64,000 bases of DNA from Marinobacter sp. LQ44 (GTDB lineage: Bacteria > Pseudomonadota > Gammaproteobacteria > Pseudomonadales > Oleiphilaceae): positions 620,001 to 684,000 of the forward strand of contig NZ_CP014754.1 in NCBI RefSeq assembly GCF_001447155.2, written 5' to 3'. Positions 31,993 through 61,181 of this stretch are shown piece after piece. The notes under the pieces are model-generated. The model had not been told where the DNA came from, did no database searches, and was given only the letters and a program-made list of their open reading frames with translations. The position numbers were made by a program, and so were the translations under genes. Each line of letters starts with the position of its first letter. Within the stretch, counting starts at the first letter, position 1.

Positions 31993-32054
31993 GGGCTCAC
32001 CCTGATCCAAATTGATAGTGACACTATAGTGTCACTTTGCAGGTGAGGCAATCA

Positions 32055-32139
32055 CCGCTAGCGCCTGCAGCATGCGCGCCCTTGAAATGGAGCCGGAGGC
32101 GCAATGTAAAGGGCGTCGCCGTGCCTGCATTGGTTAGCA
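32055..32139. repeat. attC site, family with GCATGCGCGCCC arms
   Basis: CCGCTAG (32055, a one-base variant of the usual TAAC box) and GTTAGCA (32133) bracket GCCTGCAGCATGCGCGCCC and the complementary GGGCGTCGCCGTGCCTGC. Nearly the same palindrome occurs at 36141-36224. Confidence 0.75.
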
Positions 32140-32177
32140 CTTGTTGACGCCCGTGTATATGCTGATAATATACTTTT

Positions 32178-32489
32178 ATGATCAACTGGGCACAAGTTAC
32201 TGGCTTTGACTGGGACGAAGGCAACTCCCGCAAGAACGCGGAGAAACATGGCGCAAACCAGTCCGAAGCGGAAGAAATTTTCTTTAACGAACCACTTCTG
32301 GTGCTGGTTGACTCCAAGCACAGCCAGACTGAGGCCCGTTTTCATGCCCTTGGTTCAACGGATGATGAGAGACTGCTCCACATTACGTTCACACTAAGGC
32401 AGAACGGTACGCTGATTCGGGTGATTTCCGCTCGCGACATGCACCGCAAAGAGAGGGCTGTTTATGAGCAAGCTAAAAAAGATGCCTGA
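32178..32489 (+). CDS. brnT: BrnT-family ribonuclease toxin
   Basis: A 103-residue RelE-fold toxin of the BrnT family: FDWDEGNSRKNAEKHGANQSEAEEIFF near the N terminus, ARFHALGSTDDERLLHITFTLR in the middle, and IRVISARDMHRKERAVYE at the end, all diagnostic of BrnT/COG2929. It cleaves or inhibits mRNA translation in characterised members. The brnA antitoxin follows with a 26-base overlap. The cassette is on the plus strand and carries its own upstream region. Confidence 0.9.
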   Translation: MINWAQVTGFDWDEGNSRKNAEKHGANQSEAEEIFFNEPLLVLVDSKHSQTEARFHALGSTDDERLLHITFTLRQNGTLIRVISARDMHRKERAVYEQAKKDA

Positions 32490-32736
32490 ATTTAAAACTG
32501 AAGCAGAAGAGCGAGAGTTCTGGGAAACCCACGATTCCACAGATTACCTAGATTGGAGTCAGGCCAAGCCGGCATCGTTCCCGAAGCTGAAACCCTCAAC
32601 CAAGACGATCTCACTCCGGTTGCCGGAAACCTTGCTTGATCGGATCAAAATCGAAGCCAACAAGCGGGACATGCCCTATCAATCACTGATCAAGGCTTGG
32701 CTTGCGGACGATGTGAACGACAGCCGTCGGACCTGA
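32464..32736 (+). CDS. brnA: BrnA-type CopG antitoxin
   Basis: A 90-residue antitoxin. An N-terminal toxin-binding arm (MPEFKTEAEEREFWETHDST) is followed by a ribbon-helix-helix DNA-binding module, KTISLRLPETLLDRIKIEANKRDMPYQSLIKAWL. This layout is the CopG/BrnA family that pairs with BrnT and autorepresses the operon. It overlaps brnT and ends just before the attC at 32738. Confidence 0.9.
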   Translation: MSKLKKMPEFKTEAEEREFWETHDSTDYLDWSQAKPASFPKLKPSTKTISLRLPETLLDRIKIEANKRDMPYQSLIKAWLADDVNDSRRT

Positions 32737-32737
32737 G

Positions 32738-32816
32738 GTGCTAACGCGAAGCTTTGCGGCAATTTTGGAGCCGCGAAGCGGCGGAAAATCGGTCGCTGTG
32801 CAGCCGATTGTTAAAT
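32738..32816. repeat. attC site, family with GAAGCTTTGCGGC arms
   Basis: A TGCTAAC-type box (32738) and GTTAAAT (32810) bracket GCGAAGCTTTGCGGC and GCCGCGAAGCGG arms. The same left half recurs at 35494 beside the first IS copy. Confidence 0.8.
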
Positions 32817-32870
32817 CCTTTGGCGTACAGTATCCTGACCATGGTCAACATCCTGTACAGGAGCAACCTT

Positions 32871-33122
32871 ATGGATGCCATTAGCTACACAGCCGCTAGA
32901 ACCAATCTAGCAAAAACCATGGAGCAGGTCTGTGAAGACCATTCCCCTGTGATCATCACCCGGAGCAAGTCGCAGTCCGTGGTAATGATCTCCCTAGAGG
33001 ACTACGAGGCGCTGCAAGAGACTGCATACCTTCTGCGCTCACCAAAAAACGCACGGCGTTTGCTGGAATCCGTTGCCGAGCTGGAGCAAGGCGGTGGTCA
33101 AGAAAAGGAACTTCTTGAATGA
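32871..33122 (+). CDS. yefM: YefM antitoxin, copy 1
   Basis: An 83-residue Phd/YefM antitoxin: MDAISYTAARTNLAKTMEQVCEDHSPVIITR, then SVVMISLEDYEALQETAYLLRSPKNARRL, the hallmark of YefM paired with YoeB. The ATG at 32871 has ACAGGAG upstream. It overlaps the yoeB gene as ATGA. A near-identical copy lies at 39825-40076. Confidence 0.93.
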   Translation: MDAISYTAARTNLAKTMEQVCEDHSPVIITRSKSQSVVMISLEDYEALQETAYLLRSPKNARRLLESVAELEQGGGQEKELLE

Positions 33123-33373
33123 AACTCATCTTCTCCGAGAACGCCTGGGAAGACTATCTGTACTGGCAGAAAACCGACAAAAAGATTCTTAACCGAATCA
33201 ACAAACTGATCAAAGAGACCAAACGAGAACCGTTCGAAGGTGTTGGCAAACCAGAGCCCCTCAAACACAGCCTCGCCGGGTACTGGTCCCGCCGGATCAA
33301 CGAAGAACACCGAATAGTTTACAAAGTCACGGATGACGCTTTGCTTATCGCCCAGCTCCGGTATCACTACTGA
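33119..33373 (+). CDS. yoeB: YoeB toxin, copy 1
   Basis: An 84-residue ribosome-dependent mRNA endonuclease. It shows KLIFSENAWEDYLYWQKTDKKILNRINKLI, EPLKHSLAGYWSRRINEEHRIVYKV and a final QLRYHY, where the Glu, Arg and C-terminal His/Tyr are the YoeB active-site set. Translation is coupled to yefM. The second copy (40073-40327) differs at one residue visible here, Lys to Asn in LIKETK/LINETK. Confidence 0.95.
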   Translation: MKLIFSENAWEDYLYWQKTDKKILNRINKLIKETKREPFEGVGKPEPLKHSLAGYWSRRINEEHRIVYKVTDDALLIAQLRYHY

Positions 33374-33456
33374 CTTAACGCCAGCCATCAACGCCCTGAC
33401 AAGGGCGTCCCGTGGAGGGCCATCGGCCCGGAAAAGACTTAATGGCTTTGTTAATT
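33373..33456. repeat. attC site, copy shared with 40327-40410
   Basis: ACTTAAC (33373) and GTTAATT (33450) bracket GGGCGTCCCGTGGAGGGCC and complementary bases. The site at 40327 is almost identical. Confidence 0.8.
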
Positions 33457-33486
33457 TGCGGCTCCAAGCCGACTACGAACATGTGT

Positions 33487-33708
33487 TTATTTCCTGCGGC
33501 GTGTACGCCACAAACCCCACCCGCCAACAATGAGAAGAAAAAGGTTCGCCAGCAGTGAAGCTCCCCAAAACTGAATGTTAGCGGATTGCTGCTCCAACAT
33601 TTCTGGCGTTGCATCCTGATAAGGAAGGGAGGCTCCTGACAATTCCAGGAAGCTGAAAAGAGCCCCTAAAAGCCCAATCACAACGAAAATGAAGCTCCCT
33701 ACTCGCAT
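33487..33708 (-). CDS. Small two-helix membrane protein, copy 1
   Basis: A 73-residue cassette protein not recognised. Two hydrophobic segments (about 5-24 and 49-67) are joined by an acidic/polar loop (LPYQDATPEMLEQQSANIQ) and followed by a basic tail RTRRRK, so both ends are probably cytosolic. AGGAA lies upstream of the ATG. The second copy at 40441-40662 differs by one residue in the tail (Arg/Cys). It reads in array direction. Confidence 0.7.
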   Translation of the reverse strand: MRVGSFIFVVIGLLGALFSFLELSGASLPYQDATPEMLEQQSANIQFWGASLLANLFLLIVGGWGLWRTRRRK

Positions 33709-33720
33709 GCTATTCCTGCA

Positions 33721-33792
33721 ATTTAACGCCAGTGGTAATGGGCGGCAACGGAGCGCAGCGTAGTTGGCGTCCCGTTGACCACCTTGTTAAAA
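33721..33792. repeat. attC site
   Basis: ATTTAAC (33721) and GTTAAAA (33786) bracket GGCAACGGAGCGCAGCGTAGTTG, a 72-base palindrome. It marks where copy 1 of the duplicated block stops matching copy 2. Confidence 0.75.
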
Positions 33793-33814
33793 GGCCGGAA
33801 TCGACGACTCAGAG

Positions 33815-34021
33815 TTATTCGAGATCCCCGAAGTAATATAGCGCCGCTGGCACTCCTCCCATCCCGGAGCCAAGAGCAAGCCCGAGAGCCAATCCCTCAA
33901 GTGGATCCCAAACAGTGAATCCAATCGCTGCACCGACACCAATGCCCGACCCCATTCCTCCAATGAGCCAAGCTACTGCCTTTTGTTGACCTGGTCGTTT
34001 CTGTTGCTCATTTTTGCCCAT
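33815..34021 (-). CDS. Small glycine-rich membrane protein
   Basis: A 68-residue cassette protein not recognised. A basic N terminus (MGKNEQQKRPGQQK) is followed by two Gly/Ala-rich hydrophobic stretches (about 17-36 and 42-62), a glycine-zipper-like pattern. GGAG lies eight bases before the ATG, within the adjacent attC. It reads in array direction. Confidence 0.6.
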   Translation of the reverse strand: MGKNEQQKRPGQQKAVAWLIGGMGSGIGVGAAIGFTVWDPLEGLALGLALGSGMGGVPAALYYFGDLE

Positions 34022-34115
34022 TGCTTAACTCCACGAACATTGGCTTGTCTCGAGTGAATTTAGCAGCCTTACGAAGGCATTGAAGCCGAGAGGTCTCAGT
34101 ACAGCCTGTTAACGA
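34022..34115. repeat. attC site abutting the first IS1111-type copy
   Basis: GCTTAAC (34022) and GTTAACG (34109) bracket a looser palindrome containing AGCCTTACGAAGGCATTGAAGCC. GTTAACG is also the left box of the next attC, so two sites appear to lie back to back with no gene between. Confidence 0.55.
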
Positions 34116-34202
34116 ATGATATGGACTCCCCCTGCTCCCACGGCATCTATGTGCCACATTGAAGGTGTCTGACATCTTCAATCAAAAGCAGGAGGAGTCA
34201 CC

Positions 34203-35228
34203 ATGAATGTTACAACCATTGGCATCGATCTGGCGAAAACTGTGTTCAGTATTCATGGCACCAATCAACACGGCAAGGTCGTGGTTCGCAAACGGCTCAA
34301 TCGCCCTAAACTGCTGGCGTTCTTCGCACAACTGCCACCGTGCCTGATCGGCATGGAGGCCTGTTCCGGTGCCCATTACTGGGCTCGGGAGTTAACCAAA
34401 CTCGGCCACGATGCCCGGATCATTGCACCCCGCTTTGTCGCTCCGTATCGCAAGAGCAACAAGAACGACGACAATGATGCCGAGGCCATCTGCGAAGCCG
34501 TCAGCCGGCCCAACATGCGCTTTGTCCCGATCAAGACCGAAGATCAACAAGCCGTGCTGTGCCTGCACCGCATCCGCCGTGGGCTGACCAAAGAACGCAC
34601 CGCACAGATCAATCAGATTCGTGGGCTGCTGGCCGAGTTTGGACCGATCATTCCCCAAGGGCGCTATCATGCTCGCCATCGGATTCCGGAAATCCTGGAG
34701 GATGCCGAAAACGGTTTGCCCATGCTGGCACGGCGTTTACTTAACAACATCAACCAGCGCATTCTCCAGCTCGATGAAGAGATCCTGGCCTATGACCGGG
34801 AAATCGAAGCCATGGCCCGGCGCGACGAACAGGCCAAGCGGCTGATGGCCATTCCAGGCATCGGGCCACAAACCGCCACCGCCATACTGGCCAGTGCGCC
34901 CGATCCCAGACAGTTCAAAAGCGGACGACACTTTGCCGCCTGGCTAGGGCTCGTTCCCAGGCAGTACTCGACCGGGGGCAAGCCCCGACTGGGCAGGATT
35001 ACCAAGCGAGGGGACAAATACCTGCGAACGCTATTAATTCATGGCACCCGGGCGGTGATCGCCAAGCTCGCCGACAAGAACGATCGACTCAGCGGGTGGG
35101 CTAAAGAGTTGGTGGAACGCCGCGGATATAAGAGAGCCGCTGTGGCGTTGGCTGCCAAGAATGCCCGGATTATCTGGGCGTTACTGATGAACCAAACCGA
35201 ATTCAAAACCCAGCCTGTGGAGGGCTGA
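34203..35228 (+). CDS. IS110-family DEDD transposase, copy 1
   Basis: A 341-residue transposase. The N-terminal RuvC-like DEDD domain shows IGIDLAKTVFSIHG (first Asp), GMEACSGAHYWAREL (Glu) and KNDDNDAEAICEA (Asp residues). The C-terminal half has the transposase_20 region IPGIGPQTATAILASAPDPRQF and a conserved serine region FAAWLGLVPRQYSTGGK. AGGAGGAG gives a strong ribosome site before ATG 34203. Members of this family work with an element-encoded guide RNA. Confidence 0.95.
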   Translation: MNVTTIGIDLAKTVFSIHGTNQHGKVVVRKRLNRPKLLAFFAQLPPCLIGMEACSGAHYWARELTKLGHDARIIAPRFVAPYRKSNKNDDNDAEAICEAVSRPNMRFVPIKTEDQQAVLCLHRIRRGLTKERTAQINQIRGLLAEFGPIIPQGRYHARHRIPEILEDAENGLPMLARRLLNNINQRILQLDEEILAYDREIEAMARRDEQAKRLMAIPGIGPQTATAILASAPDPRQFKSGRHFAAWLGLVPRQYSTGGKPRLGRITKRGDKYLRTLLIHGTRAVIAKLADKNDRLSGWAKELVERRGYKRAAVALAAKNARIIWALLMNQTEFKTQPVEG

Positions 35229-35474
35229 TAACCAGGCAACAACGACAGGCAGAACGCGCCTGCCAGCCGAGTCTTGCAACGGCAAGCGATGACGGAACGG
35301 TCAGACCGAGAGTGATTGAACCTGTTAAGCTTTGCGGCTGATAAAAGCCGACTAACGAATGAGGTCATCACTCACACGCATCATCATCCTGGCCCGGGCT
35401 GAAGCGCCCACATAGAGGCCGAATGTAGAGCTGCAGTCTCAAACCGCTTCGGAATCAAATGGCGTTGCTTGACC
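35229..35474 (+). ncRNA. Candidate guide (seek/bridge) RNA region, copy 1
   Basis: The 246 noncoding bases between the transposase stop and the right inverted repeat. In IS1111-type elements the guide RNA is encoded at this end. A hairpin CGGCT-GATAAA-AGCCG (35336-35351) is flanked by AAGCTTTGCGGC (35327-35338), identical to the right flank at 35496-35507, and TAACGAATGA (35353-35362), identical to the left junction. RNA ends cannot be set from sequence. Confidence 0.45.
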
Positions 35475-35493
35475 GCAGGGGGAGTCCATGTAG

Positions 35494-35563
35494 CGAAGCT
35501 TTGCGGCAATTTTGGAGCCGCGAAGCGGTGGAAGAATTGTCCGATAACAGCGGCTGGTTATGC
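35494..35563. repeat. attC site, right part, interrupted by the first IS copy
   Basis: CGAAGCTTTGCGGC through GTTATGC (35557). Together with GTTAACG left of the element it forms a full attC of the family at 32738. Confidence 0.75.
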
Positions 35564-35564
35564 A

Positions 35565-35828
35565 TTATTCGTAGTGACTCCAGAGCCTGAGGACTTTCAC
35601 CACTCGCTCGTTCTCGAGCACTTGGTAGACCAGACGATGCTGAATATTGATGCGGCGAGAATAGGCCCCCGCAAGATCACCAATAAGCTTCTCAAACGGC
35701 GGCGGCTTGCAGTATGGATCTTCCGCTATCAGCGCTAACAGTTCCTGGGCTTTCGGTTTGAGGCCACTGGAGGCCAACTTCTTTGCATCTTTCTGGGCTT
35801 GCTTGGTGTAAACCAACTTCCATGTCAC
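35565..35828 (-). CDS. YoeB/Txe-like toxin
   Basis: An 87-residue RelE-superfamily toxin: LVYTKQAQKDAKKLASSGLKPKAQELL, then PFEKLIGDLAGAYSRRINIQHRLVYQV and VVKVLRLWSHYE. The Y-S-R-R-I-N-x-x-H-R-L-V-Y block is the YoeB/Txe signature; the C-terminal SHYE replaces the RYHY of yoeB copies 1 and 2, so it is a distinct lineage. It overlaps the antitoxin gene as ATGA and reads in array direction. Confidence 0.9.
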   Translation of the reverse strand: MTWKLVYTKQAQKDAKKLASSGLKPKAQELLALIAEDPYCKPPPFEKLIGDLAGAYSRRINIQHRLVYQVLENERVVKVLRLWSHYE

Positions 35829-36067
35829 CAGTCCAGCTCCTCATCGCATTCATCCACGGGGGTATCCATCCCCTCACGAATGGACTCTCGCATACCAGGC
35901 ACGGAGAGCAGGTAAAGTGTTTCCTGAATTGCAGACCAGTCTTCCTCGGATACCAGAACGGCTTTGTTCCGCTTACCCATAATGACGATTGGCTGGTGGG
36001 ACTCGGCAGTTTCATCAATCAACCGATAAAGGTTGCTGCGCGCCTCAGTTGCTGTGATTCCGGTCAT
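35825..36067 (-). CDS. YefM/Phd-like antitoxin
   Basis: An 80-residue antitoxin: MTGITATEARSNLYRLIDETAESHQPIVIMGKRNKAVLVSEEDW, typical of YefM, followed by an acidic tail ending DECDEELDW that should bind the toxin. GAGG precedes the ATG. It is the partner of the YoeB-like gene and probably autorepresses from the short upstream region, where TACGTACG-type palindromic bases occur at about 36115-36122. Confidence 0.9.
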   Translation of the reverse strand: MTGITATEARSNLYRLIDETAESHQPIVIMGKRNKAVLVSEEDWSAIQETLYLLSVPGMRESIREGMDTPVDECDEELDW

Positions 36068-36140
36068 GACGCACCTCTTGCGTGTTCAAACTTCCATCAA
36101 GTGTACGCCTATAGGTACGTACGTCAAGACGAACGCTTTT

Positions 36141-36224
36141 GCATAACGCTTGCAGCATGCGCGCCCACGAAATGAAGCCGAAGGCGCAATGTAGTGGGCG
36201 TCGCCGTGCCTGCACTTGTTAACT
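36141..36224. repeat. attC site, family with GCATGCGCGCCC arms
   Basis: GCATAAC (36141) and GTTAACT (36218) bracket GCTTGCAGCATGCGCGCCC and its complement, matching the site at 32055-32139 in all but a few bases. Confidence 0.8.
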
Positions 36225-36653
36225 GAATATATTGGACTGCTGCTTAATTACGTTTATATCCGCTAAGTCTGACTTAATAAACTCGATCCGATACTCACCA
36301 CTTTCCCCGACCTTCTTTACGCTCCAGCGTAAGGCATACTTGCCTTTCGGTAACGCTATACTCTCTTCTGCTATGTCGACCGAACCTGATAGACATTCAA
36401 ATGGGAACTCAACAATATGATCCCATTTTTCTATTTCGGCTTCGGGAGCAGTGTCGTGAATCGATACGGGTATTTTATGATCATCATTTTCGATAACCCC
36501 GAGCGCAACTACCTGCGGACAGTAACATCCAAATTTTGAGATAGCGTCATCATCCCAGTCTAACTCGGCATCGCTCTCACAAGGATCAAAATCACCATCA
36601 AATACTTGTATTTGGCCAAAATCAGAGAAAACCTCTAACTCGATTACGTCCAT
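36219..36653 (-). CDS. Acidic cassette protein, unknown
   Basis: A 144-residue soluble protein not recognised. It starts MDVIELEVFSDFGQIQVFDGDFDPCE, is rich in Asp and Glu, and ends KVGESGEYRIEFIKSDLADIN, suggesting a beta-rich fold (alternating hydrophobic strands). It contains two Cys in a CYCPQ context. AAGGAG gives a strong ribosome site; its stop codon lies in the attC core box. The gene is clearly AT-richer than the flanking chromosome. Confidence 0.7.
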   Translation of the reverse strand: MDVIELEVFSDFGQIQVFDGDFDPCESDAELDWDDDAISKFGCYCPQVVALGVIENDDHKIPVSIHDTAPEAEIEKWDHIVEFPFECLSGSVDIAEESIALPKGKYALRWSVKKVGESGEYRIEFIKSDLADINVIKQQSNIFS

Positions 36654-36674
36654 GTCTATCTCCTTACTTTTACC

Positions 36675-36776
36675 AGTTAACGCCAGCGCACAACGGCGCC
36701 CTTGTAATGGAGGCGCAGCCGCAATGAAAAGGGCGTCCGGCGGCCACCGGCCGCGTATTGATGCGCCTTGTTATGT
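36675..36776. repeat. attC site, family with GCGGCGCCCTTG arms
   Basis: A GTTAAC box (36676) and GTTATGT (36770) bracket CGGCGCCCTTGTAATGGAGG and the complementary GCCGCAATGAAAAGGGCG. Similar arms occur at 38522 and 40675. Confidence 0.75.
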
Positions 36777-36822
36777 TTACGTTAGCTGAAAAGCCAGCCA
36801 AGGATATGCTGGAAACGAATAC

Positions 36823-37110
36823 CTATTTCTTATCGCTATCCAAGAATATCAGGATGGCTCCGACAACCACTGAAACAGAAGATACAAAGAAAATTGCCGA
36901 AAAGGGCAAACGTGTACCACCGAACAGGCTGTTGGGATCCTTATATATGGTGATATATGAATGCTTTATATTCCAAAGCAGACTCAAATCCGCTGCCCAC
37001 CTATCAGTCAACAGATAACCAGCGGTACATAGAATCACCCCGAAACCAATGAGCCAAGTACCTTTTGCCTTGGTCGTCATCTTCTTGAAAATGTCTTCAA
37101 GGTCATTCAT
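36823..37110 (-). CDS. Small two-helix membrane protein, unknown
   Basis: A 95-residue cassette protein not recognised. An N-terminal amphipathic stretch (MNDLEDIFKKMTTKAKG) is followed by hydrophobic segments at about 18-34 and 69-89, with a short periplasmic loop between and a charged tail DSDKK. GAGG lies upstream of the ATG at 37110; the longer reading to 37209 runs into the second IS copy and is not real. Confidence 0.65.
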   Translation of the reverse strand: MNDLEDIFKKMTTKAKGTWLIGFGVILCTAGYLLTDRWAADLSLLWNIKHSYITIYKDPNSLFGGTRLPFSAIFFVSSVSVVVGAILIFLDSDKK

Positions 37111-37134
37111 GGGAAACCTCTGATTGAATTCACA

Positions 37135-37142
37135 ACATAACG
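37135..37142. repeat. attC left box, interrupted by the second IS copy
   Basis: ACATAAC followed by G sits immediately left of the element; the remainder of the attC resumes at 38522. Confidence 0.7.
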
Positions 37143-37230
37143 AATGATATGGACTCCCCCTGCTCCCACGGCATCTATGTGCCACATTGAAGGTGTCTGA
37201 CATCTTCAATCAAAAGCAGGAGGAGTCACC

Positions 37231-38256
37231 ATGAATGTTACAACCATTGGCATCGATCTGGCGAAAACTGTGTTCAGTATTCATGGCACCAATCAACACG
37301 GCAAGGTCGTGGTTCGCAAACGGCTCAATCGCCCTAAACTGCTGGCGTTCTTCGCACAACTGCCACCGTGCCTGATCGGCATGGAGGCCTGTTCCGGTGC
37401 CCATTACTGGGCTCGGGAGTTAACCAAACTCGGCCACGATGCCCGGATCATTGCACCCCGCTTTGTCGCTCCGTATCGCAAGAGCAACAAGAACGACGAC
37501 AATGATGCCGAGGCCATCTGCGAAGCCGTCAGCCGGCCCAACATGCGCTTTGTCCCGATCAAGACCGAAGATCAACAAGCCGTGCTGTGCCTGCACCGCA
37601 TCCGCCGTGGGCTGACCAAAGAACGCACCGCACAGATCAATCAGATTCGTGGGCTGCTGGCCGAGTTTGGACCGATCATTCCCCAAGGGCGCTATCATGC
37701 TCGCCATCGGATTCCGGAAATCCTGGAGGATGCCGAAAACGGTTTGCCCATGCTGGCACGGCGTTTACTTAACAACATCAACCAGCGCATTCTCCAGCTC
37801 GATGAAGAGATCCTGGCCTATGACCGGGAAATCGAAGCCATGGCCCGGCGCGACGAACAGGCCAAGCGGCTGATGGCCATTCCAGGCATCGGGCCACAAA
37901 CCGCCACCGCCATACTGGCCAGTGCGCCCGATCCCAGACAGTTCAAAAGCGGACGACACTTTGCCGCCTGGCTAGGGCTCGTTCCCAGGCAGTACTCGAC
38001 CGGGGGCAAGCCCCGACTGGGCAGGATTACCAAGCGAGGGGACAAATACCTGCGAACGCTATTAATTCATGGCACCCGGGCGGTGATCGCCAAGCTCGCC
38101 GACAAGAACGATCGACTCAGCGGGTGGGCTAAAGAGTTGGTGGAACGCCGCGGATATAAGAGAGCCGCTGTGGCGTTGGCTGCCAAGAATGCCCGGATTA
38201 TCTGGGCGTTACTGATGAACCAAACCGAATTCAAAACCCAGCCTGTGGAGGGCTGA
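37231..38256 (+). CDS. IS110-family DEDD transposase, copy 2
   Basis: The same 341-residue transposase as at 34203-35228, with the RuvC-like IGIDLAKTVFSIHG, GMEACSGAHYW and NDDNDAEAICEA segments and the C-terminal IPGIGPQTATAIL region. No difference is seen between copies, so at least one transposition was very recent, or homologous exchange keeps them equal. Confidence 0.95.
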   Translation: MNVTTIGIDLAKTVFSIHGTNQHGKVVVRKRLNRPKLLAFFAQLPPCLIGMEACSGAHYWARELTKLGHDARIIAPRFVAPYRKSNKNDDNDAEAICEAVSRPNMRFVPIKTEDQQAVLCLHRIRRGLTKERTAQINQIRGLLAEFGPIIPQGRYHARHRIPEILEDAENGLPMLARRLLNNINQRILQLDEEILAYDREIEAMARRDEQAKRLMAIPGIGPQTATAILASAPDPRQFKSGRHFAAWLGLVPRQYSTGGKPRLGRITKRGDKYLRTLLIHGTRAVIAKLADKNDRLSGWAKELVERRGYKRAAVALAAKNARIIWALLMNQTEFKTQPVEG

Positions 38257-38502
38257 TAACCAGGCAACAACGACAGGCAGAACGCGCCTGCCAGCCGAGT
38301 CTTGCAACGGCAAGCGATGACGGAACGGTCAGACCGAGAGTGATTGAACCTGTTAAGCTTTGCGGCTGATAAAAGCCGACTAACGAATGAGGTCATCACT
38401 CACACGCATCATCATCCTGGCCCGGGCTGAAGCGCCCACATAGAGGCCGAATGTAGAGCTGCAGTCTCAAACCGCTTCGGAATCAAATGGCGTTGCTTGA
38501 CC
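38257..38502 (+). ncRNA. Candidate guide (seek/bridge) RNA region, copy 2
   Basis: The same right-end noncoding segment as in copy 1. Its AGCTTTGCGGC word matches the flank AGCTTAGCGGC of this copy's attC at all but one base, and TAACGAATGA again repeats the left junction. Confidence 0.45.
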
Positions 38503-38521
38503 GCAGGGGGAGTCCATGTAG

Positions 38522-38614
38522 CTGAGCTTAGCGGCGCCCTTGCAATGGAGGCGAAGCCGCAATGTAAAGGGCGTCCGGCGGCCATCGGCCGCGTACTACA
38601 GCGACTGGTTAAGT
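38522..38614. repeat. attC site, right part, interrupted by the second IS copy
   Basis: CTGAGCTTAGCGGCGCCCTTG and the complementary AAAGGGCGTCCGG arms lead to GTTAAGT at 38608. It belongs to the same family as the site at 36675. Confidence 0.75.
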
Positions 38615-38647
38615 ACGCCAAGCGACAAAGCCCAAGGTCGGCAACTG

Positions 38648-38881
38648 TCAGATTGCATCATTGCCTACAAAACCGCCATCTTCGAACCGGGCAACAAAGT
38701 TTTCCTTATTGCAGCCAGTCATCTTGCCGCAGTGCGGACACTGCGCCTGATTGCCGGTCAACGTTGCGGTACTGAATGATGCATACGGTGTCATGAATAT
38801 TGGGGAGGGGAATTTGCCGCCACAATTCAGACACTTGATAGTGATGCTCTGGGTTTCCGCGTCTGGACGAATATCACTCAT
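38648..38881 (-). CDS. Small zinc-ribbon protein
   Basis: A 77-residue cassette protein with two Cys pairs, CLNCGGKF and CPHCGK, spaced about 30 residues apart, forming a probable zinc ribbon; the linker has FMTPYASFSTATLTGNQAQ. Such modules bind nucleic acid or protein partners, but nothing identifies the role. The ATG at 38881 has GGAGT upstream. It reads in array direction. Confidence 0.72.
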   Translation of the reverse strand: MSDIRPDAETQSITIKCLNCGGKFPSPIFMTPYASFSTATLTGNQAQCPHCGKMTGCNKENFVARFEDGGFVGNDAI

Positions 38882-38899
38882 TTCTGACTCCTTTTGGCT

Positions 38900-38988
38900 A
38901 CTTAACGCGAAGGTAACCGGCGCCGAAGCGCAGCGGAGGGAACCAAAAGCTGTAAGCTTTTGGCGTCCGGTTGACCGCCTGGTTAGTG
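38900..38988. repeat. attC site
   Basis: ACTTAAC (38900) and GTTAGTG (38982) bracket an 89-base palindrome with CCAAAAGCTGTAAGCTTTTGG as an inner stem. Confidence 0.75.
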
Positions 38989-39294
38989 GCCGGTCACCAC
39001 CAAGGTCTCCCTTGGCACCCAACGCTGAATGCCCTCTCCCGAACAGCTTGCACCAACCAGACGGATGGCGAAAGGAACCAGAACGCAAACCGCACCAACC
39101 CGATTACTGTTTGAACTGGACGGCCCCGCGACTGGGGCACGCCATGAATAACCATGCTGCGGGTGACTTTGGCAACCAACCCCGACAGCCACTTTTCCGG
39201 CCTTGGCCATCACCACCATAAGCGGCTTTGCAGCCAAACCTGGTGCCAAGGCCTTTGCACTGAGCCCGCCAAAAATGAAGACGGCCTGGGCCAT
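38983..39294 (-). CDS. Hydrophobic cassette protein, unknown
   Basis: A 103-residue reading frame starting MAQAVFIFGGLSAKALAPG. The N-terminal third is hydrophobic and could be an anchor; the middle contains HPQHGYSWRAPVAGPSSSNSN and a second hydrophobic stretch VGAVCVLVPFAIRLVGA follows. No Shine-Dalgarno site is seen: the ATG lies within the attC box GTTAATG, so translation may depend on a transcript from the attI side. The stop is inside the next attC. Reality moderately supported by position. Confidence 0.5.
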   Translation of the reverse strand: MAQAVFIFGGLSAKALAPGLAAKPLMVVMAKAGKVAVGVGCQSHPQHGYSWRAPVAGPSSSNSNRVGAVCVLVPFAIRLVGASCSGEGIQRWVPRETLVVTGH

Positions 39295-39363
39295 TAACGC
39301 CCTGGGTAAGCTGCCGGTACGGAGCGCAGCGTAGTACCGGTCAGCTTCACCCACTGGTTAAAG
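39292..39363. repeat. attC site
   Basis: CATTAAC (39292) and GTTAAAG (39357) bracket AAGCTGCCGGTAC-GGAGCGCAGC-GTAGTACCGGTCAGCTT, a neat 72-base palindrome. Confidence 0.8.
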
Positions 39364-39375
39364 GTCTGAAGCGGG

Positions 39376-39687
39376 CTACTGGATTGTGGCGATACCAACA
39401 ATTTGCGCCCCACTCATGAGTCTTATTTTTGTACCTGACACAAACTGGTCAGATAAGTCTCTCGGATAGCTAGCATTTAACCATCCATCTTGCGTGCTAC
39501 CCGGGTAAGCCAAAGTCTCAAAATCGATTTGCCCCCAAAACTGGCGGTCACTTTGAGACAGATACATGTCGGGGCGCCAATTCTCGCCAGGAACCACCGG
39601 ATTAACGCGACCGCCACTATTCGTTTGTGTTAGCTCAACCAACACCTTCATAGGTTGGCGGATCTTTTCAAAATCCTCTGATCTCAT
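39376..39687 (-). CDS. Small beta-rich cassette protein, unknown
   Basis: A 103-residue soluble protein: MKVLVELTQTNSGGRVNPVVPGENWRPDMYLSQ, then QFWGQIDFETLAYPGSTQ and VSGTKIRLMSGAQIVGIATI. The alternation of strands and the R-P-x-x-x-L...G-x-x-I-x-x-G-x-x-I-x-x-A-T pattern faintly resembles the C-terminal beta-barrel of EF-Tu-like proteins; this is weak. AAAGG lies six bases before the ATG. It reads in array direction. Confidence 0.6.
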   Translation of the reverse strand: MRSEDFEKIRQPMKVLVELTQTNSGGRVNPVVPGENWRPDMYLSQSDRQFWGQIDFETLAYPGSTQDGWLNASYPRDLSDQFVSGTKIRLMSGAQIVGIATIQ

Positions 39688-39692
39688 ATGAC

Positions 39693-39770
39693 CTTTAACG
39701 CCCGGCTCACGCGCCGGTTTGGAGCCGCGAAGCGGCTGAAAATCGGTCGCTGTGCAGCCGATTGTTAAAT
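39693..39770. repeat. attC site
   Basis: CTTTAAC (39693) and GTTAAAT (39764) bracket GGCTCACGCGCCGGTTTGG and the right half GCCGCGAAGCGGCTGAAAAT. The right half matches the site at 32738-32816, so this is a hybrid of two attC types. Confidence 0.75.
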
Positions 39771-39824
39771 CTTTTGGCGTACGGTATCCTGACCATGGTC
39801 AACATCCTGTACAGGAGTAACCTT

Positions 39825-40076
39825 ATGGATGCCATTAGCTACACAGCCGCTAGAACCAATCTAGCAAAAACCATGGAGCAGGTCTGTGAAGACCATTCCC
39901 CTGTGATCATCACCCGGAGCAAGTCGCAGTCCGTGGTAATGATCTCCCTAGAGGACTACGAGGCGCTGCAAGAGACTGCATACCTTCTGCGCTCACCAAA
40001 AAACGCACGGCGTTTGCTGGAATCCGTTGCCGAGCTGGAGCAAGGCGGTGGTCAAGAAAAGGAACTTCTTGAATGA
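39825..40076 (+). CDS. yefM: YefM antitoxin, copy 2
   Basis: An 83-residue protein with the same sequence as the one at 32871-33122, preceded by ACAGGAG and coupled to yoeB as ATGA. Carrying the same antitoxin twice may protect against loss of either cassette, because each copy can neutralise the toxin of the other. Confidence 0.93.
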   Translation: MDAISYTAARTNLAKTMEQVCEDHSPVIITRSKSQSVVMISLEDYEALQETAYLLRSPKNARRLLESVAELEQGGGQEKELLE

Positions 40077-40327
40077 AACTCATCTTCTCCGAGAACGCCT
40101 GGGAAGACTATCTGTACTGGCAGAAAACCGACAAAAAGATTCTTAACCGAATCAACAAGCTGATCAATGAGACCAAACGAGAACCGTTCGAAGGTGTTGG
40201 CAAACCAGAGCCCCTCAAACACAGCCTCGCCGGGTACTGGTCTCGCCGGATCAACGAAGAACACCGAATAGTTTACAAAGTCACGGATGACGCTTTGCTT
40301 ATCGCCCAGCTCCGGTATCACTACTGA
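40073..40327 (+). CDS. yoeB: YoeB toxin, copy 2
   Basis: An 84-residue YoeB differing from copy 1 by one visible substitution (LINETK instead of LIKETK). The EPLKHSLAGYWSRRINEEHRIVY block and terminal RYHY are intact, so it should be active. It is followed by the same attC and the same 73-residue membrane-protein cassette as copy 1. Confidence 0.95.
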   Translation: MKLIFSENAWEDYLYWQKTDKKILNRINKLINETKREPFEGVGKPEPLKHSLAGYWSRRINEEHRIVYKVTDDALLIAQLRYHY

Positions 40328-40410
40328 TTTAACGCCAGCTATCAACGCCCTGACAAGGGCGTCCCGTGGAGGGCCATCGGCCCGGAAAAGACTTAATGGC
40401 TTTGTTAATT
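40327..40410. repeat. attC site, copy shared with 33373-33456
   Basis: ATTTAAC (40327) and GTTAATT (40404) with the same arms as the copy at 33373; only a few bases differ. Confidence 0.8.
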
Positions 40411-40440
40411 TGCGGCTCCAAGCCGACTACGAACATGTGT

Positions 40441-40662
40441 TTATTTCCTGCGGCGTGTACACCACAAACCCCACCCGCCAACAATGAGAAGAAAAAGGTT
40501 CGCCAGCAGTGAAGCTCCCCAAAACTGAATGTTAGCGGATTGCTGCTCCAACATTTCTGGCGTTGCATCCTGATAAGGAAGGGAGGCTCCTGACAATTCC
40601 AGGAAGCTGAACAGAGCTCCTAAAAGCCCAATCACAACGAAAATGAAGCTCCCTACTCGCAT
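40441..40662 (-). CDS. Small two-helix membrane protein, copy 2
   Basis: A 73-residue protein equal to that at 33487-33708 except for a tail residue (Cys for Arg). It keeps the AGGAA ribosome site. With the preceding yefM-yoeB cassette it forms the duplicated two-cassette block, whose right edge falls exactly in the ATTTAACGC box of the next attC. Confidence 0.7.
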   Translation of the reverse strand: MRVGSFIFVVIGLLGALFSFLELSGASLPYQDATPEMLEQQSANIQFWGASLLANLFLLIVGGWGLWCTRRRK

Positions 40663-40758: not shown

Positions 40759-40916
40759 ACTCTCAAACCTGGGACTCCGTTTTTGATATACCTTCAGTCC
40801 GATTAACACACTGGGCACAAAGGATAATACTGCAAAGATGAGGACCCAGCCCGGAAGACCCGATAAGAAAAGCATGCAAATGATGACGTAGGGAATGAAT
40901 CCTGCGTAAACCGCTG
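40753..40916 (-). pseudogene. 3' fragment of a small membrane-protein cassette, cut by IS21-type element
   Basis: About 54 codons, SAVYAGFIPYVIICMLFL... through KVYQKRSPRFESA, with two hydrophobic stretches and a basic tail. The reading frame upstream runs into the IS21-type terminal repeats at 40917, so the true start is lost. The stop sits in the attC box at 40752. It may or may not belong to the same original gene as the fragment at 47003-47310; the two do not rejoin with a target duplication. Confidence 0.6.
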
Positions 40917-41006
40917 AAGGTTGCCACCCATTCCACGTGAAGCCTGCCACCCGGACCGGAGCAAGGCTGCCACCCATCGGAGCGTAGCGACGCGGGGTTT
41001 CTCTTC

Positions 41007-42769: not shown

Positions 42770-43786
42770 TCACAGGGATTCCAGCCATTGCAGCAGCTCG
42801 GAATTGGATCGCCATACTGGCTTTCGGTGGGACTCCGCCGGAGAATCCCAAATAGGCTCACAGGTGCGGAGCGCGTCCACTTTCATTCGGAGGGTGATCT
42901 CGGCGTATCGGTTGGTGGTCTCCAAACTGACGTGTCCAAGCCAGGCGCGGATGACGTTGACCTCGACACCTGCTTCAAGCAAATGCACGGCCGTCGTGTG
43001 GCGTAAGACATGGGGTGAGATGTGCCGCACTGTGCCATCTGCGCTTTTCTTCACCACCTTGACGGTATGACGCCGCACGATCTTGTAGATACCAAATCTG
43101 GTCAGCGGCGCACTGTTGCGGGCTAGGAAGACAGCGTCATTGGAGTGGCGTCGTTGCCGATTTTGCTCCAGTAAGTCCTGCATCAGACCCGCCGTTCGCG
43201 TCCACAAAGGACAGGTACGCCATTTGTCACCTTTACCATGCAGCCGTACTCGGGGCTCAGAACCGAGTTCCAGGTGCGTTGCGCGCAGATCCGCTACCTC
43301 CTGTACGCGTGCTCCGGTGTTATAAAGGAAGCGAAGCAAGGCTTGGTCGCGCAGAGCCTGAGGGTGGTCGGTGGGCAAGGCAGCGAACAGAGCATTAATC
43401 TCGTCGCGTTCGAGATACAGAGTCTCGCCCGGTTGCCAGCGTTTGACGGGAATGGAAGCAATTTGCTGTGCTTCCCCGAGCACGCAGGGCTCACGGCCGG
43501 CAAGATACTCGAAGAAGGTATGCAGCGCCGCCAGGCGCTGGTTTCGGGTTCTAACCCCATTACCACGTTCCTGTTCAAGGTGTTGCAAAAAATGGCGCAC
43601 TCGCTCGCCAGTGAGATCAGCCAGTTCCAAGCGGGTGATCCGGCAATGCTTATCCTTTGCAGCGAATTGCAAGAACAGGCGCAGGCTCTCCTTATAACTT
43701 CGGATACTGGCCGGGCGCAGCCCCCGTTGGCATTTAAGGTGATCCTCTACGAAGGCAAAGACGAGACGCCCCAATTGATCCGTCAT
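42770..43786 (-). CDS. RIT recombinase C (tyrosine recombinase)
   Basis: A 338-residue phage-integrase-fold protein, third in the trio. Catalytic set: Arg in NTGARVQEVADL, HVLRHTTAVHLL (His-x-x-Arg-His), GHVSLETTNRY with the nucleophilic Tyr. The N-terminal SAM-like DNA-binding domain covers about residues 1-100. Its ATG overlaps the stop of the preceding recombinase (ATGA). Confidence 0.92.
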   Translation of the reverse strand: MTDQLGRLVFAFVEDHLKCQRGLRPASIRSYKESLRLFLQFAAKDKHCRITRLELADLTGERVRHFLQHLEQERGNGVRTRNQRLAALHTFFEYLAGREPCVLGEAQQIASIPVKRWQPGETLYLERDEINALFAALPTDHPQALRDQALLRFLYNTGARVQEVADLRATHLELGSEPRVRLHGKGDKWRTCPLWTRTAGLMQDLLEQNRQRRHSNDAVFLARNSAPLTRFGIYKIVRRHTVKVVKKSADGTVRHISPHVLRHTTAVHLLEAGVEVNVIRAWLGHVSLETTNRYAEITLRMKVDALRTCEPIWDSPAESHRKPVWRSNSELLQWLESL

Positions 43787-44772
43787 GATAGCTCCTCCTC
43801 TCTGCGGGGATCGGCGAATCGCTCGAACCGTTGGCTCGCCTCCCGGAGCAGTGCTTCGGTGATGGTCAGATACCAGGCAGTCGATGCCGGGTCGGCATGG
43901 CCCATGAAGGTTGATAGATGAAAGAGCCGTTGATTGGGATCCACGCCGGTGCGATACCAGCGGAGCAGAGTTGCGACCGCGAAGGAATGGCGCAGGCAGT
44001 GCAGATGAGGTTGGCGTACGCCAGGTGGCACGTACGGATCCATCTTCAGTATCAAGTGGTGAAATGTCTGACTGACCGTCTCAATACGCATTGGCTTGCG
44101 CTCTGGGAAAAAGCTGAAAGAAAATACCGGATCATCCGGCTGCCATGGCCCATACCGATCAACGCCAAACTGTAGATAGACAGCGATCTGTTGCGCCATG
44201 CGCGGGCCAAAGGGGACCAAACGCGTCTTGCCAAACTTGCTCTTGTCGATCACCAGAAGGCTGCGCTGGCAATCGACGTCGCGATACCGAAGATGCACAA
44301 TCTCGCCGACACGCAGGCCCAAACCGTACATCAGCGAGAAGATTGTTCGGTAGACCATGCCACGACAGGGTGCCCGGGAATTGTCCGGAAGCTGTGACGC
44401 CAACGTCAGGATGTCTTCCACCTGAGCCGGTTCGAACAGGAAGGGTTTAAGCTGGGAAGTCACCGGCTGAGGGTGAGCACGAACCGGAGAATGCGCTAGC
44501 CGCTCCTGGGCCACCTGCCAGGCAAAAAAGCAGCGGAGCACCCCCAAGAGGTGGTTATAGCTGCGTGGGCGAGTGCGTGGCCGCGAAGCGAGAAAGGCCT
44601 CAATCAACGCCGGTTGCACTAACGCCGCATCACTCACCCGTTCCTCGACCAAAAAGCGATCGAATAATTGCAAGGCGAGCTCTTCAGTATCAAATTTTCG
44701 GCCCAGCGCGCGCTTGTAACTCAAGTAAGCCGAAAAATCCTTGCCCAGTACGCTGTGGAAGGAGGCGGTCAT
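43783..44772 (-). CDS. RIT recombinase B (tyrosine recombinase)
   Basis: A 329-residue tyrosine recombinase. Catalytic residues appear in YGLGLRVGEIVHL, HCLRHSFAVATLL and GHADPASTAWY. The start is ATG 44772, overlapping the stop of recombinase A as ATGA; a longer reading to 44922 lies inside gene A. All three genes are coupled and probably made in equal amounts. Confidence 0.92.
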   Translation of the reverse strand: MTASFHSVLGKDFSAYLSYKRALGRKFDTEELALQLFDRFLVEERVSDAALVQPALIEAFLASRPRTRPRSYNHLLGVLRCFFAWQVAQERLAHSPVRAHPQPVTSQLKPFLFEPAQVEDILTLASQLPDNSRAPCRGMVYRTIFSLMYGLGLRVGEIVHLRYRDVDCQRSLLVIDKSKFGKTRLVPFGPRMAQQIAVYLQFGVDRYGPWQPDDPVFSFSFFPERKPMRIETVSQTFHHLILKMDPYVPPGVRQPHLHCLRHSFAVATLLRWYRTGVDPNQRLFHLSTFMGHADPASTAWYLTITEALLREASQRFERFADPRREEELS

Positions 44773-46031
44773 GGCAGCACCTCCTCGTGGCCCAGCGCCA
44801 CCATGCGCAGGGTTTCCACGTCCACCTTGGTATAGATGCGGGTGGAACTTGGCGATGCATGACCAACGTAATCGCCGATGACCTTGAAGTTGAACTCGGC
44901 ATCGACCAATCGCTGTACGCAAGTGTGGCGCAAGGTGTGCGAACCTGGGCGACGGACATTAATACCCGCTTTGCGCAGGTAGTGCGTCGCGCGGCTGGAC
45001 ACAGTAACCGCCGTCACAGGTCGGACGGGCGCCAGAACCCGGAAAAACAGCCTTCGCTCCTCGACGTGTGGGCGTGCATTTTTTAAGTAGTCGAGAATAG
45101 CTTCGCCTACCACTGAAGAGAGAGGGTACGCAGTGGTGTGTCCCGCCTTGCGCTGCGGCACCAACAGGCGTTCTCTCTTCCAGTCAATATTCTCCAGTGT
45201 CAATCCGGCCACCTCATGGCCGCGCAGTCCATACGTGACGAGCAAAAGTAGAATGGCATAGTCGCGCTTGCCCAGAGCACTGCGCCGATCAACAACATCT
45301 AGCATGCGCCGGACGTCGTCCCAGGAGATCGAACGCGGGAGATCGGCCAGCTGATACCGACGCGGGGACTCTACGGTAGCGCCGAGATCGCGATTGATCA
45401 GCTGCTCGCGGTACAGGTAGCGCAGGAAGACTCGCAAGGAGCTGCACAGCCCCGTCATAGAATGCGGGCTCAATCGGCGACCGCTCTCCACCACAAATGC
45501 ACTGAGTATGGCTGGAGTGAGCTCGGACAAATGCAGCAGGTTGATTCGCGCCAGGTAGGCTTCCAGGTTATGCAGATAATGGCCATAGTGCCGGAGAGAC
45601 AGCTCGCGCAGGCCCCGTTCTTCACGCAGATAAACAAAGAACCCCGGTGCCTGAACCAGGAAGGGATCTTGACTGGTCCGTCTCCGACCTGTTCCGCGGA
45701 AATCGGGCAACATCAGGGACAGCAATTGCTCGATCGGTGTACGAGCATCATTAGCCACCCATCGCTTTGCCTGGTATGCGTTCTTGGCGTGAACCTTTAC
45801 CCAGTGCTTTACATAAGGCTCGACATGAGTCGGAAGCTCGCTCCACTGCGTGGCACCATGATCGCGAGCAAACTCGCCAAACTGCCTCAGGAGTGGGACT
45901 CGCCGCAAGATTACCCTGGGCCTGTATCCGTGCCCGGCTAACCACGCAACGTACTGCTCAATCGGTTCCGCGATCCAGGAAGCGCGGATCGCATCGATGG
46001 TATCGGGCTTAACGAAGTAATGTTCTAACAT
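44769..46031 (-). CDS. RIT recombinase A (tyrosine recombinase)
   Basis: A 420-residue tyrosine recombinase, first and longest in the trio, with an extended N-terminal domain. Catalytic residues are in TYGLRGHEVAGL, HTLRHTCVQRL and GHASPSSTRIY. GGAG precedes the ATG at 46031. All catalytic positions are kept in A, B and C, so none is an obvious inactive partner. Confidence 0.92.
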   Translation of the reverse strand: MLEHYFVKPDTIDAIRASWIAEPIEQYVAWLAGHGYRPRVILRRVPLLRQFGEFARDHGATQWSELPTHVEPYVKHWVKVHAKNAYQAKRWVANDARTPIEQLLSLMLPDFRGTGRRRTSQDPFLVQAPGFFVYLREERGLRELSLRHYGHYLHNLEAYLARINLLHLSELTPAILSAFVVESGRRLSPHSMTGLCSSLRVFLRYLYREQLINRDLGATVESPRRYQLADLPRSISWDDVRRMLDVVDRRSALGKRDYAILLLLVTYGLRGHEVAGLTLENIDWKRERLLVPQRKAGHTTAYPLSSVVGEAILDYLKNARPHVEERRLFFRVLAPVRPVTAVTVSSRATHYLRKAGINVRRPGSHTLRHTCVQRLVDAEFNFKVIGDYVGHASPSSTRIYTKVDVETLRMVALGHEEVLP

Positions 46032-46111
46032 GACAATCTCCTTTCTGGATGTAGGAAAGGAAATCATGCGCCCAAACGGCATCTGTCGTTATGTGTCCTT
46101 TTACACGGGAT

Positions 46112-46835: not shown

Positions 46836-47002
46836 CTGGCCCTCTCCGGATGAAAAGGAGCAGAGTACCGTTAGTTATCCCGCGCCGGACGTTTTGATGG
46901 GGAAATCAGGCAGCCTGCCGGGGTGGCAGCTTTGCCGTGGAATCAGTGGCAGCTTTCGCGTGGAATGGGTGGCAGGCTTCGTCTGGAATCAGTGGCAACC
47001 TT

Positions 47003-47695: not shown

Positions 47696-48682
47696 ATGGA
47701 TATCCGCATCCCTATTTCACCGCAATCTACTCGCTTTCTGGACAAGCTCAGGAACTTTATCCGGCTACGGGGTCTGGCCTATAAAACCGAGATAACCTAC
47801 GTTTTCTGGATTAAACGCTTTATCCGGTTCCATGGCCGAAAACACCCGGGAACGATGGGCACTGAGGAGGTAGAGGCATTTTTGTCACATCTGGTACTGC
47901 AGGCAAATGTCAGCGTGGCTACCCAGCGAGTCGCACTGAATGCCCTGATTTTCCTGTACCGGGAGTTTCTGGGCACACCCTTGGAAGAGCTTCAGTATGA
48001 GGCAGCCAGAAAACCCAAGAAGCTGCCCGTTGTCTTCAGTCCGGATGAGGCCCGGCGGGTCATTGCCAACCTGGAGGGCGAGTATAAACTGATCGCCATG
48101 CTACTTTACGGTTCTGGTTTACGGATAAGTGAAGCGCTTCGGCTACGGATCAAAGATATCGATTTCGGGATGCAGCAGTTAATTATCCGCGAAGGCAAAG
48201 GCGGTAAAGACAGGATCACACTGCTTCCAGACCGGCTGATTGAGCCTCTCCAGAAGCAGATCCACTCAGCCCTGCTGCAGCACAAGGTAGATATCGCCCG
48301 TGGCTGTGGCTCGGTGTATATGCCGGCTGGTCTGGCCAGAAAATACCCCAGTGCCAGTCAGGAACCAGACTGGCAGTATGTATTTCCGGCACCGGATCTT
48401 TCTATTGATCCGCGTGCTGGAATACGGCGGCGCCACCACATGCTGGACCGAACGGTACAGAAGCACTTCAAGATTGCCATTCGCGCTGCGGGCATTCACA
48501 AGCCCGCCGGGAGCCACACCTTCAGGCACAGTTTTGCTACGCGGCTTCTGGAAGCAGGCTACGATTTACGCACTATCCAGAAGCTACTCGGCCATTCCGA
48601 TGTCCGTACCACCGAAATCTACACCCATGTTGTCCGTAAAGGCGGCTTTGGTGTGCGCAGCCCGGTGGACGAGGCCTTTTAA
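47696..48682 (+). CDS. intI: Integron integrase IntI
   Basis: A 328-residue tyrosine recombinase. Catalytic residues are Arg143 ([10 protein letters not shown]), His274-x-x-Arg277-His278 ([12 protein letters not shown]), His300 ([11 protein letters not shown]) and Tyr309. The IntI-specific extra patch lies at about 208-245 ([12 protein letters not shown]...[19 protein letters not shown]), which separates it from XerC/D. The ATG at 47696 is favoured because a longer frame from 47597 crosses the promoter. It is transcribed away from the cassette array, as usual. Its stop overlaps the phhB stop by four bases. Confidence 0.96.
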
Positions 48683-60859: not shown

Positions 60860-60936
60860 TGGCGCGGCTGGGAGGATTCGAACCTCCGACCGCCTGGTTC
60901 GTAGCCAGGTACTCTATCCAGCTGAGCTACAGCCGC
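60860..60936 (-). tRNA. tRNA-Arg (ACG), distal copy
   Basis: 77 bases with CCA encoded. Acceptor GCGGCTG, D arm AGCTCAGCTGGATAGAG, anticodon loop CTACGAA (ACG) and T arm GGTTCGAATCC. It is identical to the copy 97 bases away. Confidence 0.98.
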
Positions 60937-60956
60937 TAAAAACGGTTTTGCGATAG

Positions 60957-61033
60957 TGGCGCGGCTGGGAGGATTCGAACCTCCGACCGCCTGGTTCGTA
61001 GCCAGGTACTCTATCCAGCTGAGCTACAGCCGC
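60957..61033 (-). tRNA. tRNA-Arg (ACG), proximal copy
   Basis: The same 77-base tRNA as at 60860-60936, separated from it by 20 bases, so both are co-transcribed with tRNA-Ser. Confidence 0.98.
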
Positions 61034-61089
61034 GCATCTTTCGCATTGGTTGAATGCTGCTTCAACCTGTTCTCATTTCCCCAAAAGGA

Positions 61090-61181
<92 letters not shown>

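Follow-up and report, generated by a model that had tools for sequence, protein, structure and literature searches.

Putative attC-addressing guide RNA in the right end of an IS1111-type element of Marinobacter sp. LQ44

Element anatomy and copies

The window analysed here, a stretch of 64,000 nucleotides from Marinobacter sp. LQ44, contains two copies of an IS1111-type element of 1379 bp. Copy 1 occupies positions 34114-35492 and copy 2 positions 37142-38520, both on the forward strand and with ends read from the sequence, and the two are 100% identical over 1379 bp. Both have a 7-bp left extension (GAATGAT) and a 3-bp right extension (GTA), and the subterminal inverted repeats (ATGGACTCCCCCTG / CAGGGGGAGTCCAT) measure 14 bp, where 11-13 bp is usual for IS1111. 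The transposase gene of copy 1 (34203-35228, forward strand) encodes 341 amino acids, inside the 330-350 aa of the group, and its motif GLVPRQYSTG fits the IS1111 pattern GL-P----S(T)G. The product lies above cut-off for both Pfam DEDD_Tnp_IS110 and Transposase_20 and scores 391.6 bits against NF033542, 'IS110 family RNA-guided transposase' (cut-off 140); ISCro4 and IS621 are its relatives in the PDB. The frame is open and, by eye, retains the D, E, D, D and STG residues at their positions. As in other IS1111 elements, a non-coding region, here of 264 nt (35229-35492), lies 3' of the transposase gene.

The source genome, one contig of 4.4 Mb, holds other copies at loci L003 (92% identity) and L004 (86%). 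Marinobacter accounts for 13 of the 15 named loci whose transposases are 88-98% identical. Further copies, a second one in genome G096 and a partial one in G041, were left out of the locus set. At G044:C110:202221-202349 a short segment brings together fragments of the element's left end and transposase and may be a deletion derivative.

Insertion sites

Both copies interrupt attC-like sites of a cassette array. The flanks of copy 1 are CCTGTTAAC | GCGAAGCTTTGCGGC and those of copy 2 ACATAAC | GCTGAGCTTAGCGGC. At copy 1 the left half of the target is TAAC (34110-34113, forward strand; GTTA on the other strand) and the rest of the interrupted attC runs from 35493 to 35563, its end placed by eye. 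An uninterrupted paralogous attC at 32742-32813, on the same strand, shares the right arm of the interrupted site over the point of insertion (TAAC GCGAAGCTTTGCGG), and 44 of 50 right-flank bases are identical between the two sites. The integron integrase gene lies at 47735-48673 on the forward strand (TIGR02249, 430.6 bits, cut-off 265). The window copies and L003 are all inserted at TAAC|GC, with attC-like right flanks and in one orientation, as are elements of the IS1111-attC group. The insertion point reads GC|GTTA on the cassette-sense strand, which was assigned by eye using the attC ends and the location of the integrase. Integron integrases cross over at G|TT, and the insertion point sits one base before this crossover.

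An empty site for the L004 lineage, ATAGC|GGTGAAATAA, was found on the Marinobacter plasmid NZ_CP034143.1; it fixes the element ends and shows, for L004, that there is no target duplication. The guide and flanks of L004 are shared by the named Marinobacter loci L009-L012 and the same-genus loci L043-L046, which are therefore probably one spread insertion and not independent events. Across the close clade, the GCGG arm of the local attC sites is found within the first 20 right-flank bases of 15 of 18 elements, while the right flanks of L004, L019 and L054 are without an attC arm. The clade is thus mainly attC-directed, with at least three members apparently redirected, which bears out the proposal in the earlier note that the guide addresses integron recombination sites. 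In 43 of 46 elements the core base (base 1 of the left end) and the first base of the right flank are the same, a count in which clade members are over-represented. Locus L006, from a record labelled as a Kiloniella MAG, combines an L004-type left flank with an attC right flank and an attC-type guide, and from its sequence looks like a recombinant between two copies.

Structure and expression of the RNA region

The earlier note had pointed to two words in the right end, CCTGTTAAGCTTTGCGGC at 35321-35338 and TAACGAATGA at 35353-35362, flanking a CGGCT-GATAAA-AGCCG hairpin. All three are present, the hairpin at 35335-35350, and copy 2 carries identical words at 38349 and 38381 and the hairpin at 38363. 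Within the window TAACGAATGA occurs four times on the forward strand (two left junctions and two RNA copies) and never on the reverse strand, and AAGCTTTGCGGC is also found in the right flank of copy 1 (35496) and in the uninterrupted attC (32749).

The putative target-reading part of the guide RNA spans 35302-35393 on the forward strand, with its counterpart in copy 2 at 38330-38421. Minimum free energy folding and the alignment agree on a stem, GAGTGAT..ACCT / AGGT.ATCACTC (35310-35316/35367-35373, with an inner stem at 35320-35323/35362-35365), an internal loop made of two 11-nt strands, and the apical hairpin between them. The 5' loop strand, GTTAAGCTTTG (35324-35334), is the candidate right-target guide. 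On the 3' strand lies the candidate left-target guide TAAC followed by the core G (35353-35357), which has the sense of the left flank and would pair with the bottom strand. It is continued in register by AATGA (35358-35362), which matches the left end of the element and is a candidate handshake or splint. The predicted right-donor guide is ATCATCAT (35380-35387), in which ATCAT is the reverse complement of left-end bases 3-7 and two registers are possible. The predicted left-donor guide, CCGAAT-GTA-G (35419-35428), contains the right extension GTA and the core G. All of these parts are on the forward strand.

Double changes that keep pairing were observed in 11 of the 15 predicted pairs among 22 sequences; each pair is broken in 0-5 of the 22, partly through poor alignment of the Vibrio-type rows. 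In a clade of 16 sequences 99.2% of cells are paired and 5 of 16 pairs show double changes, a number reached by 0 of 500 shuffles, while 22 of 500 shuffles reached the value observed for further pair types, one of five measures used. The energy of the single-sequence fold is ordinary (z -1.35 for 92 nt and -0.93 for 213 nt). A search of 32000-40500 against Rfam 15, with E up to 1, gave two irrelevant weak matches and no IS110/IS1111 RNA.

No promoter-like site was found in 33900-35700. When the ends are joined in a circle, the -35-like TTGACC near the right end (35469-35474, forward strand) would pair with TA|GAAT across the junction as TTGACC-16 nt-TAGAAT, so that the site is promoter-like only in the excised circle. 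A circle-junction pair of at least 9/12 is present in 41 of 46 elements, a figure that comes without a shuffle control and from elements many of which share ends. Because of this predicted promoter, and by analogy with published IS1111 elements, the guide RNA is probably transcribed. Away from the element, stretches of about 38-50 bp nearly identical to the region from the left guide through the right-donor guide were seen at L063, L065 and L080, and matches to the same stretch (element positions ~1240-1289) occur in eight same-genus genomes as well (G029, G037, G058, G073, G086, G095, G120 and G138). In the three loci inspected (L063, L065 and L080) it lies at the 3' end of a rho-like gene, which at L063 has an ATP-synt_ab domain and the C-terminus ..LLKNIPGPG.

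The right-target guide and the right flank

Ends were scanned in 145 of 146 loci (L073, an empty site, was excluded); 73 had the required anchors and 46 elements were left after removal of duplicates. The anchors CCTG, CCGRAT and CAT were picked after inspection of the sequences. Eight Vibrio superstes loci and L068 were missed by the scan, and their ends and guides were read by eye only. The guide-flank comparison took 43 of the 46 elements (L107, L113 and L116 have no CCTG in the searched stretch) and added five loci with a right end only (L054, L078, L083, L084 and L086); L031/L052, L056, L085, L090 and the truncated L033 stayed outside it. The automatic anchor took a wrong CCTG in at least five rows (L072, L089, L114, L129 and L130), which were kept.

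Co-variation of guide and target across relatives, a check suggested in the earlier note, is clear. Among 42 distinct guides the mean Watson-Crick run was 5.76 nt with the element's own right flank and 3.72 nt with swapped flanks, and 0 of 20000 permutations reached the observed value. The same holds where the right flank begins otherwise than with GC (27 distinct guides; 5.63 against 3.61; 0/20000) and within the close clade (12 distinct guides; 6.0 against 4.36; 1/20000). Within the source genome, the L004 guide TTATTTC faces the right flank GAAATAA. Random 14-mers of the window gave a complementary run of at least 6 nt in 72 of 4000 draws, so the evidence from the window by itself is weak and the case depends on the related elements.

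In 14 of 48 elements the own Watson-Crick run was 4 nt or shorter (L014, L015, L018, L039, L066, L067, L069, L071, L072, L083, L089, L105, L114 and L129). By eye, L072, L089, L114 and L129 are anchoring errors. Allowing G-U pairs lengthened the run in L018 (3 to 8), L066 (4 to 10), L069 (3 to 7), L071 (3 to 8) and L039 (3 to 5) and left L014, L015 and L105 at 4. A fixed distance between the insertion point and the pairing was also considered and rejected: the shift is -1 to +2 in 19 of the 21 elements shown, and L006 and L008 align best elsewhere.

Only part of the first word, which had been read as guide throughout, behaves as one: its middle changes with the target, while CCTGTT is scaffold. 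The motif CCTG(T/A)T lies in the RNA region of each of the 15 clade elements, irrespective of their left flanks. The redirected L004, L019 and L054 carry both CCTG(T/A)T and TAACGAAT (L004 with AATAA for AATGA) at flanks without an attC arm. It had been reasoned that the same words in elements with other targets would speak against a guide; CCTG(T/A)T and TAACGAAT thus fail as sole address words, and the middle of the first word, being altered along with the target, withstands this test.

The left-target guide and its continuation

Over 26 distinct left flanks, the left guide and core base match their own flank at 5.5 of 6 positions, against 4.07 with swapped flanks (0/20000). L004 has one mismatch, TAAC in the RNA for TAGC in the left flank. 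The second word, TAACGAATGA, had been taken as a repeat of the left junction; it consists of the left guide TAAC, the core G and AATGA, so that TAAC does address the left target, but the GAATGA after it matches the left end of the element and not the target (TAAC|GAATGA). In the 23 elements with at least 5/6 left-guide matches, the five bases that follow the core agree with the left end at 3.30 of 5 positions and with the right flank at 1.30 of 5. With left ends swapped, 419 of 20000 permutations reached the observed value, and an (A/G)ATG pattern is common to both the RNA continuation and the left ends.

The permutation result is suggestive only, and the following idea is accordingly put forward as a tentative one that we rather doubt. 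In IS1111 RNAs the left-target guide may run without a break into a copy of the left end of the element, so that a single RNA strand could bind the bottom strand of the left junction once this is complete. As a bottom-strand handshake or product splint, it would drive strand exchange and, in the reverse direction, would tag for excision those copies that are correctly seated. If true, a part of the conserved 7-bp left extension would thereby be accounted for. In IS621 the handshake guides are 2 nt long and belong to the right guides (PMC11208158). A longer, left-sided handshake was not met in the consulted text of PMC11187229, PMC11208160 and PMC11208158, and may be in print.

The donor guides

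In the RNA, the right 3-bp extension and the core base come after CCG(A/G)AT, as GTA-G in the window element. Elsewhere the corresponding words are AGG-C (L088), CTA-T (L072), ACA-T (L129) and AGA-T (L113 and L114). Among 21 distinct donors this guide matches at 4 of 4 positions in 19, the exceptions being L016 and L118 (0/20000). The right-donor guide is a 5-nt word ending in CAT that is the reverse complement of left-end bases 3-7: ATCAT in the window element, GTCAT in L069 and L087, CACAT in L104 and ACCAT in L105. Its match is 4.52 of 5, against 3.55 with swapped ends (0/20000), with 12 of 21 words perfect and 9 of 21 having at least one mismatch; of the two candidate words in L128, the second was taken by hand. 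When only the first two bases are counted, which are free of any anchor, the match is 1.62 of 2 against 0.65 (0/20000). Complementarity to the donor ends covaries with the ends of the element, as is asked of a seekRNA or bridge RNA.

Interpretation and alternatives

We conclude with high confidence that the right non-coding end encodes a seekRNA/bridge RNA whose guides address attC and the element's own donor ends, and the stretch flagged in the earlier note is very probably its target-reading part, in an IS1111-type element that inserts into attC ends. Structure and guide-target covariation thus back the note's assignment to the IS110/IS1111 type, with the RNA in the right place and a hairpin between the guide strands. 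The target stem-loop of the RNA would open into the internal loop, where two guides would jointly address one attC end (TAAC|GC..AGCTT.GCGG), and the element would enter between the C and the G, a single base away from the crossover of the integrase. A second branch would carry the donor guides, reading the element's own abutted ends (GTA|GAATGAT). By analogy with IS621 and ISEc11, the transposase would bind this RNA and exchange strands as those systems do.

The note had wired the guides in another way, with CCTGTTAA as a direct copy of the left flank, AAGCTTTGCGGC as one of the right flank, and both as guides. Copy 1 does contain the exact words, and its right flank has a direct run of 11 nt against 6 nt for the reverse complement. 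In direct comparison the 5' strand is also somewhat more like its own right flank than swapped ones (identity 4.12 against 3.69; 57/20000). However, copy 2 has the same RNA between other flanks, lacks the left word in its flank, and gives 5 nt direct against 6 nt for the reverse complement. Over 48 elements the reverse complement, which pairs with the top strand, follows the target (5.76 against 3.72, as above) and is longer than the direct match in 29, shorter in 8 and equal in 11; examples are L004 (7 against 4), L054 (9 against 4), L070 (10 against 4), L086 (9 against 3), L088 (8 against 3) and L127 (9 against 3). The left flanks of the clade include CAACATAAC, CACCATAGC and AAATCTAAC, and CCTGTTAAC is found in only 2 of 15 (L001 and L015). 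As a direct copy of the left flank, the left word scored 3.09 against 3.13 with swapped flanks, a value reached by 12877 of 20000 permutations. The left-word match in copy 1 is taken for a coincidence, and the direct wiring is very improbable.

Choice of the site by the transposase or by the folded attC hairpin alone, with the RNA-like region being structural or a terminator and the matches due to shared ancestry, would agree with the folds alone not being significant and with the likeness of RNAs and targets in the clade, some of which is inherited. This explanation is scarcely credible given that the flanks of L004, L054 and L019 match their guides without an attC arm, that the guides facing right flanks without an initial GC covary as strongly as given above, and that ISEc11, according to the text of PMC11187229, stops forming circles and transposing when its downstream non-coding region is deleted. 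It is also unlikely, if less so, that the element is real but now inert in the source genome and its RNA a relic, since two identical copies, an open transposase frame with the residues named above, intact ends and a promoter-like pair at the junction all speak against this.

Relation to known systems

The guide RNA proposed here belongs to a system of known kind in a new lineage, in which a changed guide matches a changed target in related copies, one of them in the same genome. seekRNAs that target attC have been published for ISKpn4 and ISPst6, in both of which the RNA was purified together with the transposase (Siddiquee et al. 2024, PMC11187229), and attC insertions are also treated in PMC12444791 and PMC11616780. 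By the description in the text of PMC11187229, our element resembles the IS1111-attC group (ISKpn4, ISPst6 and ISPa25) in its transposase, 7- and 3-bp extensions, subterminal inverted repeats and downstream non-coding region, as well as in insertion at one attC end and an RNA whose top-strand match lies 5' of the bottom-strand match. Unlike that group as described, it belongs to a Marinobacter lineage and some members are redirected to flanks without an attC arm. ISEc11 and ISXne4, in the same text, share natural redirection by exchange of guide bases and a circle-junction promoter (predicted in our case); they differ in having other targets, and redirection is seen here between copies of one genome and across 42 distinct guides.

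With the IS621 bridge RNA, as presented in the text of PMC11208160 and PMC11208158, the likeness lies in a target loop with donor guides, a core overlap and an RNA-guided DEDD recombinase. In contrast to IS621, the RNA here is in the right end with the order of the guides reversed, a single shared core base (judged from 43/46 elements) would replace CT, and for 4-5 nt past the core the left guide is similar to the left end of the element. This running on of the left guide into the element's own left end is the less familiar feature, and a possible splint for the insertion product.

In this lineage, attC-hunting elements offer guides paired with their targets as a natural series, in which one copy of the same genome is redirected to a non-attC site whose empty form is known. 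The lineage also yields a map of four guide segments that covary with the target and the element ends. Rules for IS1111 guides, such as spacing tolerance, the handshake and donor reading, become testable without blind screening. Their insertion a single base away from the crossover of the integrase points to a way in which integron cassettes can be locked by elements of this kind.

Other features of the window

Three adjacent tyrosine recombinase genes (42770-46082) lie between the integron integrase gene and the cassette array, inside inverted 60-nt arms that are 77% complementary (40916-40975 / 46921-46980). Matching sets of this trio are found at nine genome places, this one included. A stretch of 300 nt is duplicated with 99% identity (32764-33063 / 39718-40017), and its first copy encodes a Phd/YefM-type antitoxin. 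Two identical tRNA-Arg (ACG) genes stand in tandem beside a tRNA-Ser (GCT) gene at 60860-61181.
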